Assembly (NCBI RefSeq): GCF_002563925.1
Contig: NZ_PDJD01000001.1
Location: 248,001 to 312,000, forward strand
DNA length: 64,000 nt
From: Serinibacter salmoneus
GTDB lineage: Bacteria; Actinomycetota; Actinomycetes; Actinomycetales; Beutenbergiaceae
Reading direction: 5' to 3'
The position numbers and the translations under genes were made by a program. Shown here one piece after another: positions 19,819 through 60,825 of this stretch. Position 1 is the stretch's first letter. Each line of letters opens with the position of its first letter. The notes under the pieces were generated by a model, which was not told the DNA's origin, did no database searches, and saw only the letters and a program-made list of their open reading frames with translations.

Positions 19819-21033
19819 TCAGCGGCCTGGCGCGCTGCGGCGTCGTGCCGCCAGCAGGGCGAGCGTGCCGAGCATCAGCAAGCCGGCGGCCCCGAGCAGC
19901 AGCGGCGTGCTGCCCACACCCGTGGCGGCGAGTGCGTCCACCGTGGGCGCGTGGCTGGAGGCGGTGGGGCTCGGCACCGCCGGTCCCACCACCGTGAGGG
20001 CGACGGTGCCGCTGCGGAAGCTGTCGGTTCCGGTGGCGGTGACGGCGGCCTCGCCGGGTTCGGCGTCTGCGGGCACGGTCAGGGTGCCGGTGAAGGAGCC
20101 GTCCTCGGCTGCGATGGCGGAGCCGACCTCGGTGCCATCGCCCCAGGTGAAGGTGACGGTCTCGCCGGGCAGGAATCCGGTGCCGGTGATGTCGACGACG
20201 TCCCCGGGCATCGAGGTGCCGTCGTAGCCGGGGAGGCTGACGGTGACGGGGACCTCGGCGGAGCAGTTGTCGGCGACTTCGGCGGGGTACTCCCACGGGT
20301 CCACGGCGTCCAGGTTGGAGCCGTCGGAGGTGACCAGGACGAATCCGACGCCCGGGGCGCTGGTGCCGGCGGGGGCGGTGATGAGCCACACGATCTCGCT
20401 GGTGGTGGGGCCGGAGGCGGTGACCTCGAAGGAGTCGATGATCACGCCGTCGTCCCACACCTGCAGGGTGAAGGTGTCATCGCCGTCGGTCTCGATGGTG
20501 ATGGTCACCTCGCAGCCATCGCGTGTGATGTCGGTGATCATCCCGGCCGGCGCGGGGGCCTCCTCCTCGGTGGCTTCCTCGGTGGCGGGTTCCTCTGTGG
20601 CTTCCTCGGTGGGCTCCGGGGAGGTGGCTTCCTCGGTGGGCTCCGGGGAGGTGGCTTCCCCGGTGGGCTCCGGGGAGGTGGCTTCCCCGGTGGGCTCCGC
20701 GGCGGTGGGTTCGACCGTCTCGGGCTCCGGCGGCTCGGTGGCCTCCGGCGCCTCGGATTCGGTGGGCTCAGCAGGCTCAGCAGGCTCAGCAGGCTCAGCA
20801 GGCTCAGCAGGCTCAGCAGGCTCAGCAGGCTCAGCAGGCTCGCCCGTTTCGGTGGGCTCCGCCTCCGACGGTTCGGGACCTGGCGGGGCCGGTTCCGCCG
20901 TCGCGCCGGGGGAGGCCTCGCTGCTGGCCGCCGGGGCGGTCGGCTCGACGCCGTCGGCGAGGGCCGGTGGGGACAGGAGACCAAGAAGCAGGGCGACCGC
21001 CGCAACGGCAGCACCTCGGGACGAACGAGACAT
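19819..21033 (-). CDS. Sortase-anchored cell-wall protein with Glu-Pro-Ala repeats
   Basis: 404 aa from ATG 21033 (GGAG 6 nt upstream). A signal peptide ends near PPALADG (about residue 27). Residues about 30-170 are low-complexity: eight EPA triplets, then four GEATSPEPT-like nonapeptides, then EEATEEPATEEATEE. A globular region of about 200 aa contains a filamin/IPT-like segment (VDITGTGFLPGETVTFTWGDG, AVTATGTDSFRSGTVALTVV). The C-terminus has the sorting signal LAATG, a hydrophobic stretch and a basic tail (ARRRSAPGR), matching the LAxTG type used by actinobacterial class E sortases. No sortase gene is seen here. The Pro-rich part may span the wall; the ligand is unknown. Confidence 0.85.
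   Translation of the reverse strand: MSRSSRGAAVAAVALLLGLLSPPALADGVEPTAPAASSEASPGATAEPAPPGPEPSEAEPTETGEPAEPAEPAEPAEPAEPAEPAEPAEPTESEAPEATEPPEPETVEPTAAEPTGEATSPEPTGEATSPEPTEEATSPEPTEEATEEPATEEATEEEAPAPAGMITDITRDGCEVTITIETDGDDTFTLQVWDDGVIIDSFEVTASGPTTSEIVWLITAPAGTSAPGVGFVLVTSDGSNLDAVDPWEYPAEVADNCSAEVPVTVSLPGYDGTSMPGDVVDITGTGFLPGETVTFTWGDGTEVGSAIAAEDGSFTGTLTVPADAEPGEAAVTATGTDSFRSGTVALTVVGPAVPSPTASSHAPTVDALAATGVGSTPLLLGAAGLLMLGTLALLAARRRSAPGR
20597..20704. repeat. Four 27-bp tandem repeats in coding sequence
   Basis: Four consecutive near-identical 27-nt units inside the wall-protein gene encode GEATSPEPT/EEATSPEPT-like nonapeptides. Confidence 0.85.
20767..20838. repeat. Eight perfect 9-bp tandem repeats in coding sequence
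   Basis: CTCAGCAGG on the plus strand is repeated eight times without change and encodes the Glu-Pro-Ala/Ala-Glu-Pro series. The unit is a multiple of three, so slippage would alter spacer length without a frameshift. Confidence 0.95.
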
Positions 21034-24780: not shown

Positions 24781-24934
24781 TTCGCGAGGCCTTTGTGCAG
24801 CCACCGCGAGAGGTTTCTGCAGGCGCGGGTGACGAACCCGGTGGGGCACAACCGCCTCGCGGTGGGGGCGGGACTGCCTCGCGGACGGGACGGGAGAACC
24901 TCGCGGTGGGGGCGGGACTGCCTCGCGAACGGGG
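24781..24934. repeat. Divergent copies of the 22-bp hairpin repeat between thiB and thiP
   Basis: This stretch has CCGCGAGAGGTTTCTGCAGGC (one mismatch-rich unit) near 24808, and opposite-orientation units CAACCGCCTCGCGG near 24848 and ACCTCGCGG near 24899. A direct repeat of about 28 bp (CCTCGCGGTGGGGGCGGGAC and onward) occurs twice, near 24855 and 24899. It belongs to the family described at 27364. It sits between coupled transporter genes and may form several hairpins in the mRNA. Confidence 0.6.
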
Positions 24935-26597: not shown

Positions 26598-27355
26598 GTG
26601 GGACAGCAATGAGCAGTGGGCTTCAGGTGCGCGGCGCCGTCGTGCGCTACCCGGCGGTGCGCCGGGGCGGGGAGGCGACGATCGCCGTCGACCACGTGGA
26701 CCTGGCCGTGCGGCCGGGGGAGGTGCTGGCGCTCCTCGGCCCCTCGGGCTGCGGGAAGTCCAGCCTGCTGCGCGCCGTCGCCGGGCTCGAACCACTGGAG
26801 GCGGGCGCCCTGACCTGGGACGGCGCGGACCTCACGCCCGTGCCGGTGCACCGCCGCGGGTTCGGGCTGATGTTCCAGGACGGGCAGCTCTTCCCGCACC
26901 GCACCGTGGCGGGGAATGTGGCCTACGGGCTGCGGGGAACGTGGTGGGGCAGGGGGGACGCGCGCGGCGCGCGGGTCGCGGAGATGCTCGACCTGGTGGG
27001 CCTCGCGGGCTACGAGGACCGGCCGGTCACCACGCTCTCGGGTGGGCAGGCGCAGCGGGTGGCGCTGGCCCGATCGCTCGCGCCCTCACCGCGGCTGCTG
27101 CTGCTGGACGAGCCGCTCTCGGCCCTGGACCGGAACCTGCGCGAGGAGCTGGTGGGCGTGATCGGGCGGGTGCTGCGGGAGGCGGGCACCACCGCGCTGT
27201 ACGTGACGCACGACCACGACGAGGCGATCACCGTGGCCGGCCGCATCGCCGTGATGCTGCAGGGCCGGATCGTGCAGGTCGCCCCGGCCGCGGAGATCCG
27301 CACCGCCCCGGCCTCACCGCAGGTCGCCGCGTTCCTGGGCGTCCCGCCCGCTTGA
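26594..27355 (+). CDS. thiQ: Thiamine ABC transporter, ATP-binding protein
   Basis: 253 aa. Walker A GPSGCGKSS (about residue 47), Q-loop MFQDGQLFPH, signature LSGGQAQRVALARS, Walker B LLLLDEPLSALD and the switch His in YVTHDHDEA. It powers thiamine uptake through ThiP. GTG 26594 overlaps the thiP stop as GTGA; an internal ATG at 26609 is possible. It is the last gene of the riboswitch operon and is followed 8 nt after its stop by the five-unit 22-bp repeat array. Confidence 0.92.
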   Translation: MSGTAMSSGLQVRGAVVRYPAVRRGGEATIAVDHVDLAVRPGEVLALLGPSGCGKSSLLRAVAGLEPLEAGALTWDGADLTPVPVHRRGFGLMFQDGQLFPHRTVAGNVAYGLRGTWWGRGDARGARVAEMLDLVGLAGYEDRPVTTLSGGQAQRVALARSLAPSPRLLLLDEPLSALDRNLREELVGVIGRVLREAGTTALYVTHDHDEAITVAGRIAVMLQGRIVQVAPAAEIRTAPASPQVAAFLGVPPA

Positions 27356-27363
27356 CCCGGCTA

Positions 27364-27473
27364 CGCGAGGTGGTTCTGCAGGCACCGCGAGGTGGTTCTG
27401 CAGGCACCGCGAGGTGGTTCTGCAGGCACCGCGAGGTGGTTCTGCAGGCACCGCGAGGTGGTTCTGCAGGCGG
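27364..27473. repeat. Five tandem 22-bp hairpin-forming repeats
   Basis: Five head-to-tail copies, exact except the last bases. Each unit contains CGCGAGGTGG, TTCTGCAGG and CAC. Across a unit junction, CACC and GGTG form a stem closed by the tetraloop GCGA, flanked by self-complementary CTGCAG. The array fills the gap between thiQ (stop 27355) and the convergent tetR gene (end 27525). Function is not known; transcript-end formation is one guess. Confidence 0.95.
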
Positions 27474-30303: not shown

Positions 30304-30402
30304 ACCTGCAGAACCACCTCGCGGTGGTGGCAGAACCACCTCGCGGTGGTCGCAACCATTCGCGAGGTGGTTCTGCAGGCACCGCGAGGTGGTTCTGCAG
30401 GT
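30304..30402. repeat. Inverted array of 22-bp repeats between convergent genes
   Basis: Two units in minus orientation (from 30304) face two units in plus orientation (to 30402). The outermost 23 nt at 30304-30326 are perfectly complementary to 30380-30402. A transcript from either side could fold into a long hairpin, so it could end both drrB-like and gntK transcripts. Confidence 0.85.
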
Positions 30403-30411
30403 CGTGGAGAC

Positions 30412-37039: not shown

Positions 37040-37860
37040 GCGCGCCACACGGACAGTCACGGGTGCCCTCCCGCGCCCACCGCGCCGCCGCCGGTGCTCT
37101 CCCGATCCTCGCCGCCGTGCTCGGCATCCTGCTGATCTGGACCGTGGTGAGCATGGTGCTGCTCGACCCCGCGCGCCGCTTCCTGCTGCCGCCCCCCTGG
37201 GAGGTGGCGAGCGTGCTCGGGCAGCCCACGATCATGGCGCCGATGCTGGCGGCCCTGGGGCGCACGACGGCGGTCGCTGCCCTCGGCCTGCTGCTCGCCG
37301 TGCTCCTCGGCACCGGATGGGCGGTGCTCATGGCGCAGTCCCGCGTACTGGAGCGGATCCTATACCCCTACGCGGTGATCCTGCAGACCATCCCGATCCT
37401 CGCGCTCACCCCGCTGATCGGGATCTGGTTCGGCTACGGGTTCCCGGCCCGCGTCGTCGTGGCGGTCATCATCGCGATCTTCCCGATGATCTCCAACGCC
37501 TTCTTCGGGCTGACCTCGGCGCCGAGCGCGCAGGCGCATGACCTGTTCACCCTGCAGCGCGCCAGCCGCGCCCAGCGCCTGGCGAAGCTCCAGGTGCCCG
37601 CGGCGGTCCCGAGTTTCTTCACCGGCCTGCGCACCGCGGCCGGGCTCAGCGTGATCGGCGCGATCGTCGGGGACTTCTTCTTCCAGCAGGGTGACGTCGG
37701 CATCGGCGGACTGCTGCGGCAGTACACCCAGCAACTCAACATGAACGCCCTCATGGTCGCCGTGGCGCTCACCGCACTGTTCGGCGTGCTGGTGTTCAGC
37801 CTGTTCGCCGCGCTGGACCGCTGGGTGGTGGGCCGCTGGTACGGGACCGCCTCGCGGTAG
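37036..37860 (+). CDS. ABC importer permease (SsuC/TauC-like)
   Basis: 274 aa, about six hydrophobic segments, BPD_transp_1 family. FLLPPPWEVASVL, the EAA-like loop TLQRASRAQRLAKLQVPAAVPSFFTGLRTAAG (about residues 170-200), and GAIVGDFFFQQGDVGIGGLL are typical of the sulfonate/pyrimidine-precursor permeases. The stop lies inside a degenerate copy of the 22-bp repeat. Works with the upstream ATPase; candidate partner is the lipoprotein at 38886. Confidence 0.88.
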   Translation: MSAPHGQSRVPSRAHRAAAGALPILAAVLGILLIWTVVSMVLLDPARRFLLPPPWEVASVLGQPTIMAPMLAALGRTTAVAALGLLLAVLLGTGWAVLMAQSRVLERILYPYAVILQTIPILALTPLIGIWFGYGFPARVVVAVIIAIFPMISNAFFGLTSAPSAQAHDLFTLQRASRAQRLAKLQVPAAVPSFFTGLRTAAGLSVIGAIVGDFFFQQGDVGIGGLLRQYTQQLNMNALMVAVALTALFGVLVFSLFAALDRWVVGRWYGTASR

Positions 37861-37880
37861 CGGCAGAACCCTCTCGGGGT
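37850..37880. repeat. Single degenerate 22-bp repeat at the permease stop codon
   Basis: CCTCGCGGTAGCGGCAGAAC at 37850-37869 resembles minus-orientation units of the family, with CTCTCGG following. It contains the TAG stop of the permease gene and lies between convergent genes. Confidence 0.5.
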
Positions 37881-38731
37881 CAGCGGACCCGGCGCACCTC
37901 GAACTGCATCCGCGGGTGCGCGTAGGACTCCTGCGCCTCCACGAGCTGGAGCTCGCGCTGCCCGCTCTCGTGGGTCAGGGTCAGCAGGTCGAACACCGAG
38001 GACGTGGTGCGCGCAAGGGCCAGCGCCGCATCCCCGGTGGCCCGGTAGTGGGAGGTGAACAGCGCCGCCGTCACGTCCCCGGAGCCGTTGGCCTTCATCG
38101 GCAGCAGCGGCGTCTGCACGATCCATGCGCCCTCGGGCGTCACGGCGAGCATCTCGATGGTGCCCTCGGGCCGGTCCGGCCGCTCCACCGAGGTGACCAG
38201 CACCGTGGCGGGGCCCATCGCCCGCGCGGCGTCCGCCGCGGCGAGGGTGGACTCCAGCGTGTCCGGCTCGGTGCCGGTGAGGAAGCCGAGCTCGAACTGG
38301 TTCGGGGTGATCAGATCGGCGTGCGGCACCACCCGCTCGCGCAGCAGCACCGGGATCGCGGGTGCCACGAAGCAGCCGGACTTCGCATTCCCCATCACGG
38401 GGTCGCAGGCGTAGATCGCGCTCGGGTTCGCGGCCTTCACCCGCGCCACCGCGTCGAGGATCACCTCGCCGATGCCCTCACCGCCCTGGTAGCCGGAGAG
38501 CACCACGTCGATGTCCGCGAGCGCCCCGCGCTCCTGGATCCCCGTGACGACCTCGCGCACGTCCTCGGGCGCCAGCAGCGGTCCGCGCCACGCGCCGTAC
38601 CCGGTGTGGTTGGAGAAGTGCACGGTGAACACCGGCAGCACCTCCACGCCGATGCGCTGCATCGGGAAGACGGCGGCGGAGTTGCCCACGTGGCCGTAGG
38701 CGACGGACGACTGGATCGAGAGCACCTTCAT
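37880..38731 (-). CDS. pdxY: Pyridoxal kinase
   Basis: 283 aa. Phosphorylates pyridoxal (and related vitamers) for the B6 salvage pathway. N-terminal VLSIQSSVAYGHVGNSAAVF is the PdxK/PdxY signature; LSGYQGG, YACDPVMGN, ITPNQFELGFLTG, and the ATP/catalytic loop LPMKANGSGDVTAAL with GSGD (about residue 215) follow. ATG 38731 is 7 nt from a TAGGGT box. It converges on the ABC importer genes and is divergent from the substrate-binding lipoprotein gene. Confidence 0.93.
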   Translation of the reverse strand: MKVLSIQSSVAYGHVGNSAAVFPMQRIGVEVLPVFTVHFSNHTGYGAWRGPLLAPEDVREVVTGIQERGALADIDVVLSGYQGGEGIGEVILDAVARVKAANPSAIYACDPVMGNAKSGCFVAPAIPVLLRERVVPHADLITPNQFELGFLTGTEPDTLESTLAAADAARAMGPATVLVTSVERPDRPEGTIEMLAVTPEGAWIVQTPLLPMKANGSGDVTAALFTSHYRATGDAALALARTTSSVFDLLTLTHESGQRELQLVEAQESYAHPRMQFEVRRVR

Positions 38732-42380: not shown

Positions 42381-44916
42381 GCTGTACTTCACGGTCACGA
42401 ACAACCCGGACGGCCGCGCCCTGGGACAGCGCGCCACCGCCACGGACTTCGACGCGAACCGCGACATGATCACCGGCGCCACGAAGGAGGCCGTGCTGAT
42501 CCGCGACCTGACCGCGGTGATCCAACCGACCAACTACCTGGACATCCACGGCTACACCAACGTGCTGCAGGTCGAGCCCTGCGGCCCCCCGCACGGGGAG
42601 AACTACGAGTACGACCTGTTCCTGCCCACCGCCTACGACATGGCGTTGGAGATCGAGCAGAACGTGGTCGCCGCGGACATCGAGGGCAACACCTACCTCG
42701 ACCGCGAGACCGGCCGCGTCACCACCGAGAACACCGGGTACATCAAGATCCCCTACCGCGACATCCGCTCCGGGTGGGACGACTGGCCGCCGATCTTCAC
42801 CCCGCAGTACGTGGCCTACCAGGGCGCGATCACCAACACGGTGGAACTGCCGCTGGGCCGCACCGGCGACCAGGAGGAGAGCGAGCGCCGCCTGGACGTG
42901 AACAAGCAGGTGGCGCGGATCGTGATCGAGACCGCGGTGGAGCAGGTGAACACCACCGGCGACCTGCTGCTGGAGAACCAGATCGAGATCTTCCGCCGCG
43001 GCGCCGCCGGCGAGCCGCTGGTGGAGATGCCCGCGGACGTGGACCCGACCACGATCCCCGGACCGGACGAGTGGGCCGATATCTGGGACGCCTCCGATGT
43101 CTCGGGCGCCGAGTTCCCCCGGGCGTACGTGATCCCGATGGGCGGCACGCAGCGCTCCGAGACCGATGCGGTGACCCTGGTCGATCAGCTCCTGGCCAAC
43201 GGCGTGGAGGTGGACCGCGCCACCACCGAGATCACCATCGGTGGCACCACCTACCCGGCCGGGAGTTTCGTGGTGGACATGCACCAGCCGCTGCGCGGCA
43301 TGGCGAATGTGCTGCTCGACGAGGGCAGCGACATCTCCGATGTCGTGCCCTCGATGTACGACATCTCGGCCTGGAGCCTCGCGCTGCTGTGGGGTGCCAC
43401 GGTGGACAGTGTGGGTGACACCACGGACGGTCCGCTGCCCGCGGGTCTCGAGCAGATCACCGAGACCGCGCCCACGGGGTCGGTGCCGGAGCAGGGCTGG
43501 TACCTGGAGCTGGAGATGCGCGGCACCGCGGAGTACCAGGCACTGACCGCGCTGCTGCAGGCCGGGATCCCGGTCTCGCTCTTCGAGGACGGTGATGTGA
43601 TCCTCGGCCCCGACGCGGAGTCGCACGCCGCCGCGGTGGCCGTGGCCGAGGCGTACGGGGTGAGCTTCCTGGCCTCCGACGGTTCGCGTCTGACCGCGGA
43701 GGAGTCCGTCGGGCTGGATGAGGCCGTGGTCGCCTACACCGGGGACGCGGGGGATGTGACGTCGCTGGCGCGGCTCGGGATCACCGAGCCGCTGGCGCTG
43801 AGCAACGACGCCCTGGTCTCCGGTGAGCTCGACCTCGACGAGGTCGATGTCCTCTGGATCGGCTCGAACCCGCGGATCTCCGACGAGGCCGCCGTCGCGG
43901 CGATGGCCGAGTGGATCGCGGCCGGGGGCGACGTGGTCGGTGACGGCACCGCCGCCGCGGACTTCGTGGCCGAGTACGGCATCGCCGAGGTCACCGCGAC
44001 CAGCGGCACCCGCAGTTCCAACGGGATCGCCCGGGTGAGCGACGCCGATGGCGGGCTGCTGGCCACCTACCCGCAGGAGCACGCCTTCGGGTACTCCTTC
44101 AGCTGGTTCTCCGACCTGCCCGAGGGCGTCGAGGTGGAGCAGACCTACGCCGTGGAGGACACCTTCGTGGCCGGGCACTGGCGGGCCGCGGAAGGCACCT
44201 CGCCGGCGGATGCCGCCGGGCAGGCCTCGATCGTCTCGACCGAGACCGAGGCGGGTAGCCGCGCGGTGCTGTTCGGCACGACCCCGACCTTCCGGGCCCA
44301 CCCGGTGGGTGCCCTCAGCCAGATCGGCCGCGCGCTGTACTGGGCGGCCGATGCCGAGGGTGAGGGTGTCATCGACCCCGCTGACATCGTGGATGAGAAC
44401 CCGCTGACCGCGATGGTCGACGGCGAGGCCTCCGAGGGCGAGACCCTCACCGCCGTGGTGGCGCAGGACTGGGAGATCACGGCCTACCAGTGGCTGCGCG
44501 ACGGCGAGGCGATCGAGGGTGCGACCGGGGCGACCTACGTGGTGACGCCGCAGGACGGCGGGGCGATGCTCGCGGTGCAGGTCACCGGGTCCAAGCCGCT
44601 GTACACCGACGTGACGGTGGTCTCCGAGGCCGTGGGCCCGGTGCCCGTGGTCGAGCCGACGCCCGACCCCACCGGTAGCCCGACCACTGACCCGACCACG
44701 GACCCGACGACCGACCCCACCACGGACCCCACCACGGACCCGACGGGTGACGCGACGACCGACCCGACCGATGGGTCGAGCTCGGGTGGTTCGGGCGGTG
44801 GCCTGGCGAGCACCGGCGTCGGCGTCGCCGGCCTGGCCGGTGCGGCGCTGCTGATCGTGGTCGGCGGAACGGTGATGGCCGTGCGCCGCAAGAACGCGGG
44901 GGAGTCGGCCGAGTAG
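42381..44916 (+). pseudogene. M14 zinc carboxypeptidase, C-terminal part with sortase signal
   Basis: The 3' part of the split gene, about 845 codons. LYFTVTNNPDGR and the third zinc ligand in YLDIHGYTNVLQVEPC complete the catalytic site begun in the first part. Later regions are Asp/Glu-rich and resemble the large secreted M14 proteins of actinobacteria, then an Ig-like segment (VAQDWEITAYQWLRDGEAIEGA). A TTDP repeat spacer near 44680-44760 is followed by the sorting signal LASTG, a hydrophobic stretch and VRRKNAGESAE. ATG 42466 in frame could start a truncated product, but it would lack the signal peptide and the HxxE zinc pair. Confidence 0.9.
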
Positions 44917-58201: not shown

Positions 58202-59159
58202 CGCCGAGGCGGATTTCCGCACGCCGCATCGCTCACCGCTCGCGGCCCGCGCCGCCGACGACGCCATGCGCTTCGAGGCCATCGGCACCCAGTGGACGAT
58301 CCTCACGCCCGAGCCCCTCCCCATGGGGGTGGAGGCGCGGATCCTGGCCGCGATCAGCGAGTTCGACCACGAGTGGTCCCGGTTCCGGGAGGACTCCCTG
58401 GTCGCGGCGCTCGGGCGCGAGGGCGGCACGGCCCCGGTCGGGCTCGACGGTGAGGCGATGCTCCGGCTGTACACCCGCCTCGCGGAGGCGACCGAGGGCG
58501 CCGTCAACCCCCTGGTCGGGGCCCGCCTGAGCCACCTCGGCTACGACGCGACCTACCGGTTGGAGCCGGCGCCCGGGGCGCCGCCGGAGGTGCCCTCGTG
58601 GAGCAACCGCTTCCAGGGCACGACGGCGCTGCTCACCCTGCCGCGCGGAACCGTGCTGGACGTGGGTGCGATCGGCAAGGGTCGACTGGTGGACATCGTG
58701 GTCGGCATCCTGCAGTACGTCGGGATCTCGGAGTTCACCGTGGACGCCGGGGGCGACATGCGCCACCGGGGCGCCTTCCACGGCGGCGACGGGTTGCGGG
58801 TCGCCCTCGAGCACCCGCTCGACTCCGAGCGCGCCGTGGGTGTGGTGACCCTGCAGGACGCGGCCATCGCCGCCTCCGCCACCAATCGACGCTCCTGGTC
58901 CGCCGGGCTGCACCATGTGCTGGACGCACGCACCGGCGCCCCCGCCCGCGGGGTGCTGGCCACCTGGGCCATTGCCCGGACGGCCATGCTCGCCGACGCC
59001 GCCTCCACGGCCGCCTTCTTCCTGCCCCCGGCCGCGGTGATGCAGGCACTGGACGGCGTGCACGCCGTGATCGTGATGCCCACCCGCGGGCCCCTGCGCG
59101 CCGCCGGTTTCGATGCGCTGCCCGAGGGCCGCGCACACAGTGGCACCCTGTTGGCGTGA
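58194..59159 (+). CDS. ApbE family FAD:protein FMN transferase
   Basis: 321 aa from GTG 58194, overlapping the previous gene by 8 nt. Transfers FMN from FAD to a Ser/Thr of partner proteins. Motifs: GTQWTILT near the start, EFDHEWSRFREDS, EGAVNPLVG, VLDVGAIGKGRLVDIV, DAGGDMRHRG and HHVLDARTGAPARGVLATW with the Mg-binding Asp in MLADAASTAAFF. No signal peptide is obvious, so it may act in the cytoplasm or be exported another way. Neighbouring FMN-binding lipoprotein is the expected substrate; GTGA overlap with the next gene. Confidence 0.92.
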   Translation: MPDAEADFRTPHRSPLAARAADDAMRFEAIGTQWTILTPEPLPMGVEARILAAISEFDHEWSRFREDSLVAALGREGGTAPVGLDGEAMLRLYTRLAEATEGAVNPLVGARLSHLGYDATYRLEPAPGAPPEVPSWSNRFQGTTALLTLPRGTVLDVGAIGKGRLVDIVVGILQYVGISEFTVDAGGDMRHRGAFHGGDGLRVALEHPLDSERAVGVVTLQDAAIAASATNRRSWSAGLHHVLDARTGAPARGVLATWAIARTAMLADAASTAAFFLPPAAVMQALDGVHAVIVMPTRGPLRAAGFDALPEGRAHSGTLLA

Positions 59160-60715
59160 CCATCCTCAGCTCACTGGACCGCCTGCTCGGGCGGATCTCC
59201 ATGGTGCTGTTCACCGCGGTCGTCCTCGCGCTGCTCCTCGCGGTTGCGGGGGTCCAGGCGGGGCTCGGGAGCCTGCCCTATGACTGGGCCGTGCTGCTGC
59301 CCGCTGCAGGCAGCGCCGTCGTGGGCAGCCTGCTCGGCACGATCGCGGGTGCCCTGGTCACCCGGTCCCGGCCCTACCTGCCCTCCAGTGCGGTCACGGG
59401 CCTGATCCTCACCCTCGTGATGCCCGCCACGCTCGGCTGGCAGGTGTTCCTGCTCGCCGGGGCCGCGGCCGGCGCCTCCAAGTACCTCATCGCCTGGCAC
59501 GGGCGGCACCTGCTGAATCCCGCCGTCGTGGGCCTGCTCGTGATCGGCGTGACCGGGGCGGGAGTGAGCACCTGGTGGGTGGGGACCGAGCCGATGATCC
59601 TCCCGGTGCTGCTCGGCGGCCTGCTGGTGCTGTGGCGGGCGCGGCGGCTCGGGTTCGCCGCCGTCTACGCGTCGGTTGCGATCGGGCTCACCTGGTTCGG
59701 GTATGTGCTCGGGGGTGCGGAGCCCGGGGCTGCGCTGCGGTTCGCGGTGGTCTCCGCGCCCACCCTCTTCCTCGCCGCGTTCATGCTCAGCGAGCCCGTG
59801 ACCAGCCCGCCGCGGGCGTGGCAACGTGCGGTGGTCGGCGCGCTGGTGGCGCTCGTGCAGGTGCTGCCGCTCTACCTGCCCGGCGGCGGGGTGGTCCTCG
59901 GCACACTGACCATCACCCCGGAGCTGGCGCTCGCCGTCGGGAACCTCGTGGCGTTCGCCTTCGGGACGCGCGCCCGGGTGCGGTTGCGGCTCGTGCGGCG
60001 GCAGGTGCGCGGCGACCTGGTCGACCTGTACTTCGCGCCCTCCCGGCCGCTGCGCGCGCTTGCGGGGCAGTACCTCGACGTGGACGTGCCGCAGGCCGGG
60101 CTGGTGGCGGATCGGCGGGGGCGACGGCGCCCGCTCAGCCTGGCCGGCGACCCCGCCGGTCCCGAGGTGCGGCTCGTGACGCGGCTGCGCGCGGCGCCGG
60201 ACGCGCGGCCGAGCCCGGTGAAGCAGGCCCTGGTGAACCTCCCGCCGGCGGGGGAGATCGCGGTGCTCGGGGTGGCGGGGGAGTTCCTGGCGCCGAGGCC
60301 CGGGCGGCCTGCCCTGCTGGTGGCCGCCGGGATCGGCGTGACCCCGTTCCTGGCGATGCTCGATGCGGCGGCGGGGTCGGCGCCCTGGGGTGGTGCGGCG
60401 GGTGGCGCGCGGGACTGGGTGGTGCTGCACGCCGTCACCCGCGCCGAGGACGCACTCGCGCTGGCCGCACCGCCGCCGGCGGGGGTGCGGTGCCTGCTCG
60501 TGGTCCCACCGGAGTTGGCCGCGGCCTCGGCGACCGGCTGGGAGACCGTGGTCGGCTCGGTGTACTCGGCCGATGGCCTGCTGGCCCTGGTGCCGGACGT
60601 CGCGGCGCGGCAGGTGCTCGCCTCCGGCGCGCCGGTGCGGCTCGAGCCCCTGCGCCGCGCGCTGCGTGCCGCCGGCGCCCGCCGCGTGCGCACCGACGTC
60701 TTCCTCGGCTACTGA
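59156..60715 (+). CDS. RnfD/NqrB-like membrane domain fused to ferredoxin-reductase-like domain
   Basis: 519 aa from GTG 59156 (GTGA overlap). Residues about 1-280 hold about eight to nine transmembrane segments; GASKYLIAWHGRHLLNPAVVG and FMLSEPVTSPPRAW match the RnfD/NqrB signatures, but no SGAT-type flavinylation site is seen in it. Residues about 285-519 form an FAD/NAD-binding oxidoreductase: GQYLDVDVPQAG, RRPLSLAGDP (flavin loop), and VAAGIGVTPFLAMLD (pyridine-nucleotide loop). It likely takes electrons from cytoplasmic NAD(P)H to the external FMN lipoprotein. The stop is followed directly by the 22-bp repeat array. Confidence 0.87.
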   Translation: MTILSSLDRLLGRISMVLFTAVVLALLLAVAGVQAGLGSLPYDWAVLLPAAGSAVVGSLLGTIAGALVTRSRPYLPSSAVTGLILTLVMPATLGWQVFLLAGAAAGASKYLIAWHGRHLLNPAVVGLLVIGVTGAGVSTWWVGTEPMILPVLLGGLLVLWRARRLGFAAVYASVAIGLTWFGYVLGGAEPGAALRFAVVSAPTLFLAAFMLSEPVTSPPRAWQRAVVGALVALVQVLPLYLPGGGVVLGTLTITPELALAVGNLVAFAFGTRARVRLRLVRRQVRGDLVDLYFAPSRPLRALAGQYLDVDVPQAGLVADRRGRRRPLSLAGDPAGPEVRLVTRLRAAPDARPSPVKQALVNLPPAGEIAVLGVAGEFLAPRPGRPALLVAAGIGVTPFLAMLDAAAGSAPWGGAAGGARDWVVLHAVTRAEDALALAAPPPAGVRCLLVVPPELAAASATGWETVVGSVYSADGLLALVPDVAARQVLASGAPVRLEPLRRALRAAGARRVRTDVFLGY

Positions 60716-60825
60716 CGCGAGGCGGTTCTGCAGGCACCGCGAGGTGGTTCTGCAGGCACCGCGAGGTGGTTCTGCAGGTACCGCGAGGTGGTTCTGCAGG
60801 TACCGCGAGGTGGTTCTGCAGGCAC
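60716..60825. repeat. Five tandem 22-bp hairpin-forming repeats abutting a stop codon
   Basis: Five head-to-tail units of the family described at 27364, starting one base after TGA 60715. Units differ at single bases (GGCGG in the first; GGTACC in two). Between this gene and an MFS gene on the same strand. Confidence 0.95.

Follow-up and report, generated by a model that had tools for sequence, protein, structure and literature searches.

To our knowledge, REP sequences and their RAYT transposases are the main known case in bacteria of dispersed repeats served by an enzyme of their own. Excerpts from two reports describe the RAYT gene as flanked by two inverted REPs (PMC2817692) and REP sequences as forming inverted doublets (PMC3116915). 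Here, we describe arrays of a 22-bp unit in Serinibacter salmoneus which, in our assessment, are probably the dispersed, non-autonomous part of a REP-like repeat-nuclease system.

The window, by which we mean the whole 64-kb stretch of DNA that was analysed, is 248001-312000 of the source genome (G000), a single contig of 3,268,715 bases. The unit, CGCGAGGTGGTTCTGCAGGYAC, is present there as five perfect tandem copies, which confirms the first-pass annotation on this point. That annotation also placed copies at 24.8, 30.3, 37.9 and 60.7 kb; all four sites are indeed related to the unit, those at 24.8 and 37.9 kb being degraded. For the 20-base core of the unit, the window contains 15 matches at up to 3 mismatches against 0.03 expected. 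The sites are as follows.

24783 to 24931, no single strand: degraded array of two + units followed by four - units, between two + genes.
27364 to 27473, + strand: array of five perfect 22-bp units, 8 bp past the stop of a + gene at 26627-27355 (named thiQ in the first-pass annotation).
30306 to 30404, no single strand: two - units followed by two + units; together they take up the spacer of a convergent gene pair, whose stops are 8 and 7 bp away.
37845 to 37885, - strand: degraded remains of about two units, which take in the TAG stop codon of a + gene at 37063-37860.
60716 to 60825, + strand: array of five units, immediately past the stop of a + gene at 59156-60715.

The site at 37.9 kb lies below the threshold of the array scan and was read directly from the sequence. 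The array at 24.8 kb starts 122 bp past a stop and ends 10 bp ahead of a called start, which corrects the earlier statement that the repeats sit at gene ends and never at a start. The window also contains unrelated tandem repeats at 20564-20841 and 44656-44769, with units of 27, 9, 12 and 48 bp, the second of these lying within a called gene.

Across G000, the 20-mer core is matched with no more than 2 mismatches at 77 forward and 69 reverse places, and the reversed control at none. Stretches of the 3.27-Mb genome fetched around clusters of copies contain about 55 arrays of at least two units (56 in the counts that follow); as they were picked around arrays, array density is not readable from them. 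With genes called by a codon-usage model trained on the fetched stretches, and not taken from an annotation, 28 arrays lie between convergent genes, 22 between codirectional genes, 2 between divergent genes and 4 within called ORFs, while the array-free spacers of the same stretches number 46 convergent, 247 codirectional and 70 divergent. Of the 50 arrays that have a gene 3' end beside them, 47 have the nearest one at most 22 bp away. Within codirectional spacers, the array lies on average 15% of the free spacer from the stop, where uniform placement would give 50% (p ~1e-5, the lowest value that the test can give, with 19 arrays of G000 and 12 of G006). The latter genome, detected with the tandem pattern among 396 genomes of the order, has a diverged version of the repeat, which is mostly beside gene 3' ends as well.

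It had been stated that the repeat is never inside a gene. This is true of the window, but genome-wide 3 of the 56 arrays are in-frame two-unit copies within ORFs, with coding signal on both sides: one in LigD that separates the primase-polymerase domain from the ligase domain, one in an ABC-F ATPase ahead of the C-terminal domain and one in an S9 peptidase. The fourth case inside an ORF is a weak match. All three in-frame copies have the appearance of insertions, two being in linkers between domains. No clear case of insertion with target duplication was found, the one array-free orthologous spacer compared (at the L114 site of G004) being too diverged. TGACC was considered as an insertion signature and rejected, because CC is the commonest pair after stops anyway (106 of 430 genes). 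Units are more alike within arrays (0.890) than between arrays (0.844; 0 of 200 shuffles). As a separate matter, the region G000:C1:898267-1574703 extends over 676 kb without arrays, for which p is ~1e-4 under uniform placement and 0.004 when arrays up to 10 kb apart are merged; six 20-kb control stretches inside this gap contained no array, and one two-unit chance match in an ORF.

A position next to stop codons and a preference for convergent spacers are what would be expected of host elements acting as terminators or shielding the 3' ends of mRNAs, with the nuclease gene described below merely lying in one such site. Inverted pairs such as that at 30306-30404 would, moreover, fold strongly as RNA. 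The first-pass annotation had similarly envisaged a functional RNA element, with a CACC/GGTG stem capped by a GCGA loop. Such a stem can be drawn, but it is without covariation: across 148 of 150 unit junctions (the two with other spacing were omitted), its two variable pairs are paired in 67% and 82% of cases, where independent columns would give 67% and 85%. Compared with dinucleotide shuffles, the folding of 47 arrays of G000 is mildly below, and alike on the two strands (mean z -1.30 and -1.36), and in 16 arrays of G006 the difference is nil (z 0.06 and -0.13). Codirectional arrays of G000 comprise 12 in sense orientation, 6 antisense and 4 mixed, and those of G006 with a single orientation 5 sense and 3 antisense. 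Covariation is lacking, neither strand is clearly preferred and arrays of G006 fold like shuffled DNA; on these grounds the RNA-hairpin reading fails and was rejected. Host elements of the kind outlined are, for the same reasons, an unlikely explanation: an antisense orientation in 6 of 18 single-orientation codirectional arrays speaks against them, and they leave unexplained the arrays found on both sides of all ten close homologs of the nuclease.

The unit of G000 itself is absent from the other genomes among 24 of the family. With a looser detector, which asks for three GCGAGG spaced 20-22 bp apart, the family yielded 133 matches in G006, 71 in G000, 55 in G005, 18 in G004 and 13 in G007, no other member exceeding 3; a second family yielded 25 in G049, 18 in G065 and 6 in G197. 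Altogether, matches occurred in 100 of the 396 genomes; the remaining listed ones had at most 7, most of them 0, while the reversed control reached 13 at most (G267). Each lineage keeps almost to one repeat period: 22 bp in G000 and G006, 21 in G004 and G005, 21-22 in G007 and 20 for the second family. Outside a shared core, the unit sequence varies among genomes. In a class-wide search of 394 genomes with a tandem pattern, a draw from which G006 was absent, G000 was the sole match. No match to the exact tandem pattern was found among the named genomes searched; the degenerate pattern matched one Chloroflexi contig there, probably by chance.

In the second family (G065 and G197; L204, L205, L209, L210 and L212), the first unit often provides the stop codon of the gene, GCGAGGTAG, and arrays of G065 and G197 start exactly 9 bp before the gene end in six array runs. 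G005 has a second 21-bp repeat family, AGCGAGGGGCGTGCCGTCGTC-like, whose arrays often face outward (L223, L224, L157 and L159), and, by the end of a gene at 3420526-3420682 (L157; 20526-20682 of L158), a long palindrome that is almost perfect, the unit of which resembles the arrays beside the L158 nuclease.

Outside the window, at G000:C1:2526996-2528131, a single gene of 302 amino acids (2,527,156-2,528,061) lies between two arrays that face inward. A related gene in G006 is also between two arrays and is absent from the corresponding place in G004 and G005; in G004, a gene of the same family again lies between inward-facing arrays. Protein searches of 35 genomes returned remote matches in all, with at least 50% identity only in G000, G001, G004, G005, G006 and G007; a profile search of the 396 order genomes, with five candidates scored per genome, found no homolog at E <= 1e-25 in the other 18 genomes of the family. 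All ten close homologs in these six genomes lie between inward-facing arrays of 21-22-bp units (at L158, the two-unit 3' array was read by eye), including a truncated copy in G004 and a disrupted copy in G005. At nine of the ten loci, L158 being the exception, the best match of the upstream flank is the downstream flank of the same locus, with a mean score of 94 against 32 (permutation p 2e-4). Presence of the gene also follows presence of the repeat: all five family genomes rich in GCGAGG arrays have a close homolog, and among the remaining 19 only G001 has one, its arrays being of the form GCGAGAGG, which the GCGAGG detector misses. By hand calculation, if 5 of 24 genomes are array-rich and 6 carry the nuclease, such an overlap has a probability of 6/42504. 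The association of repeat and nuclease is strong. A correlation between nuclease and repeat sequence (r 0.35, p 0.046, residues 1-60) was left unused because two pairs were high (429 and 327), probably via neighbouring genes in the flanks compared.

Adjacent arrays of G000 that are 200-2000 bp apart face inward in seven of seven cases, one of which involves a weak match. Other single genes between inward-facing arrays are found at 321356-322063, 611488-612351, 822208-822884 and 2654028-2654353, some of them GNAT-like or OsmC-like by eye; it is possible that these are cargo, or coincidence.

The protein is predicted by AlphaFold2, run on nine sequences (pLDDT 82.4, pTM 0.81), to consist of two halves. 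Predicted residues 11-189 resemble AbiEi antitoxin (Foldseek E 4.2e-5 to 6y8q and 6.7e-4 to 1zel). Predicted residues 194-295 superpose on the catalytic domain of I-Bth0305I (3r3p_A) with a Z of 10.5 and 2.6 A over 93 residues, and on Vsr with a Z of 9.2 and 2.7 A over 98; the Foldseek E value to I-Bth0305I (3r3p_B) is only 0.58. E197, D228, E239, D241 and H246 are invariant in nine homologs. We therefore describe the protein as a predicted fusion of an AbiEi-like DNA-binding half with a nuclease half of the Vsr/I-Bth0305I type (EDxHD). At the sequence level, PADLOC models of AbiEi match (best E 5.6e-15), Pfam AbiEi_4 matches one of nine members, and REase_MTES_1575 / DUF559 (Pfam) matches weakly, and below its curated cut-off, four of nine close members (best E 5.5e-4) and the more remote L283 (3.9e-7) and L298 (6.5e-7). 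NCBIfam has no match to the nuclease.

This predicted architecture brings into play two further explanations. AbiEi and Rv2827c bind inverted repeats in promoters, according to excerpts from PMC7319586, and the arrays beside the nuclease gene could accordingly be operators through which an AbiEi-like protein regulates itself, the dispersed arrays being decoys or a regulon. The predicted fold fits this proposal, as does the 5' array, which in eight copies precedes the start by ~60-230 bp. The second array, however, abuts the 3' end of the nuclease gene, the dispersed arrays are at gene ends and rare in divergent promoter spacers (2 of 52), and the nuclease half is left without a role, so that we regard operators as improbable. 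Still less probable is that a defence or toxin-antitoxin gene simply landed in repeat-rich sites, for which the PADLOC matches and the several other single genes of G000 between inward-facing arrays might be cited. In eight of ten copies there is no room between the arrays for a second gene, such as the nucleotidyltransferase toxin gene of AbiE systems (at L214 and L274, an extra gene is found between array and nuclease), relatives of the nuclease were not found in phage records or viral contigs and are limited on plasmids to three remote matches, and a chance landing would not account for ten flanked copies in ten.

Arrays that bracket the nuclease gene, together with close relatives elsewhere that are bracketed by repeats of their own, give the impression of a selfish system driven by the nuclease, and not of a set of RNA hairpins. 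We infer the following sequence of events for such a repeat-nuclease system. The AbiEi-like half would bind the repeat core, CGAG(A)GG in the clade of G000, and the nuclease half would cut or nick there; repair of the break would then copy units elsewhere and between arrays, resulting in spread, expansion and homogenisation. Copying by break repair is suggested by the nuclease fold, by the homogeneous units within arrays and by the differing units at orthologous-looking loci such as L214 and L274. Copies would persist mostly just past stop codons, either as the least harmful place for them or as one to which they are directed. Among the observations that count against the repeat-nuclease reading, besides the lack of a clear insertion with target duplication noted above, are these: arrays are closer to stop codons than tolerance alone predicts, and some nuclease loci, such as L214 and L274 with flanks 81-87% identical, look vertically inherited.

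Inverted repeats often flank more distant homologs as well, in support of the reading. At 17 distant loci (L292-L308), flanking repeats at E <= 1e-6 are inverted in 13 and direct in 2, and at the next seven (L309-L315) they are inverted in 6 and direct in 4. Among the 24 most remote loci, the figures are 10 inverted and 13 direct, a result that was counted against the reading above; with direct and inverted repeats about equal, this third tier was not used as support. Inverted repeats flank 11 of 269 control genes, made up of 1 of 235 in G000, G004, G005 and G006 and 10 of 34 in G065 and G197, where the control stretches were centred on remote nuclease homologs; these ten were also counted against the reading. 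The core GTGATCATG faces inward on both sides at 7/17, 2/7 and 0/24 loci in the three tiers. Of 670 control genes just two show this, and both encode the nuclease (in G027 and G030). That only 7 of the 17 distant loci share this core also weighs against the reading, as does the fact that a locus's own flank is the best match in just 8 of 15 distant loci tested (p 0.011).

In G027 and G030, a related repeat is dispersed beyond the nuclease. The sequence CGTGATCATG occurs six times in 180 kb of G027 (0.13 expected) and nine times in 140 kb of G030 (0.06 expected). Apart from the pairs beside the nucleases, these comprise one non-genic cluster (69 and 87 bp from 3' ends) and one cluster in an ORF in G027, and three non-genic clusters 10-15 bp from a 3' end in G030; 540 kb of control stretches contain four matches, three within ORFs and none near a 3' end. 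In the second family, inward-facing 20-bp arrays enclose the remote homologs L276 and L283 and none of ten further remote homologs fetched, and in two fetched stretches no homolog was seen. We regard it as slightly more likely than not that AbiEi-EDxHD nucleases, each bracketed by inward arrays of its cognate repeat, form a large, unrecognised class of selfish repeat systems on actinobacterial chromosomes, which would spread the repeat to gene ends by cutting and repair. The class would then contain many natural pairs of nuclease and target array, and would give a role to proteins now read as AbiEi antitoxins or as DUF559 unknowns. It also makes testable how short extragenic repeats spread and why gene ends collect them.

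Among the matches listed, the literature contained nothing on these repeats or on the pairing of repeat and nuclease, and none linked REase_MTES_1575 / DUF559, to which the likeness is confined to weak sequence matches, to repeat arrays. The resemblance to AbiEi antitoxins and Rv2827c (type IV toxin-antitoxin) lies in the predicted fold of residues 11-189 and the PADLOC matches, whereas the fusion to a nuclease half is unlike AbiEi, and so is the finding that, in eight of ten copies, the arrays enclose no partner gene. With the EDxHD homing endonucleases (I-Bth0305I) and Vsr, the protein may share the fold predicted for residues 194-295 and the conserved acidic residues; it differs from them in its ~9-13% identity, its AbiEi-like DNA-binding half and its location, which is array-flanked and not intronic. 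The first-pass annotation had offered a REP/MITE-like mobile repeat as the alternative to an RNA element, and of the two this has proved the better supported; the layout is that of REP and RAYT. The REP-type transposase gene it suggested looking for did not materialise: the RAYT domain Y1_Tnp (PF01797) was found in none of nine genomes, G000 and G006 included, in a search whose control was positive in 5 of 14 known genomes, and a different enzyme lies between the arrays. If our reading is true, REP-like biology would have arisen independently around an unrelated enzyme, and a second such enzyme with the same layout would show that these systems arise repeatedly. As with REP and RAYT, in so far as the excerpts cited above describe them, short extragenic repeats are present in many copies and an enzyme gene lies between two inverted repeats, here in ten of ten close homologs; unlike them, the enzyme is predicted to combine AbiEi with a Vsr-like nuclease and is not a Y1/HUH transposase, and the units are tandem, 20-22 bp long and without a conserved hairpin.
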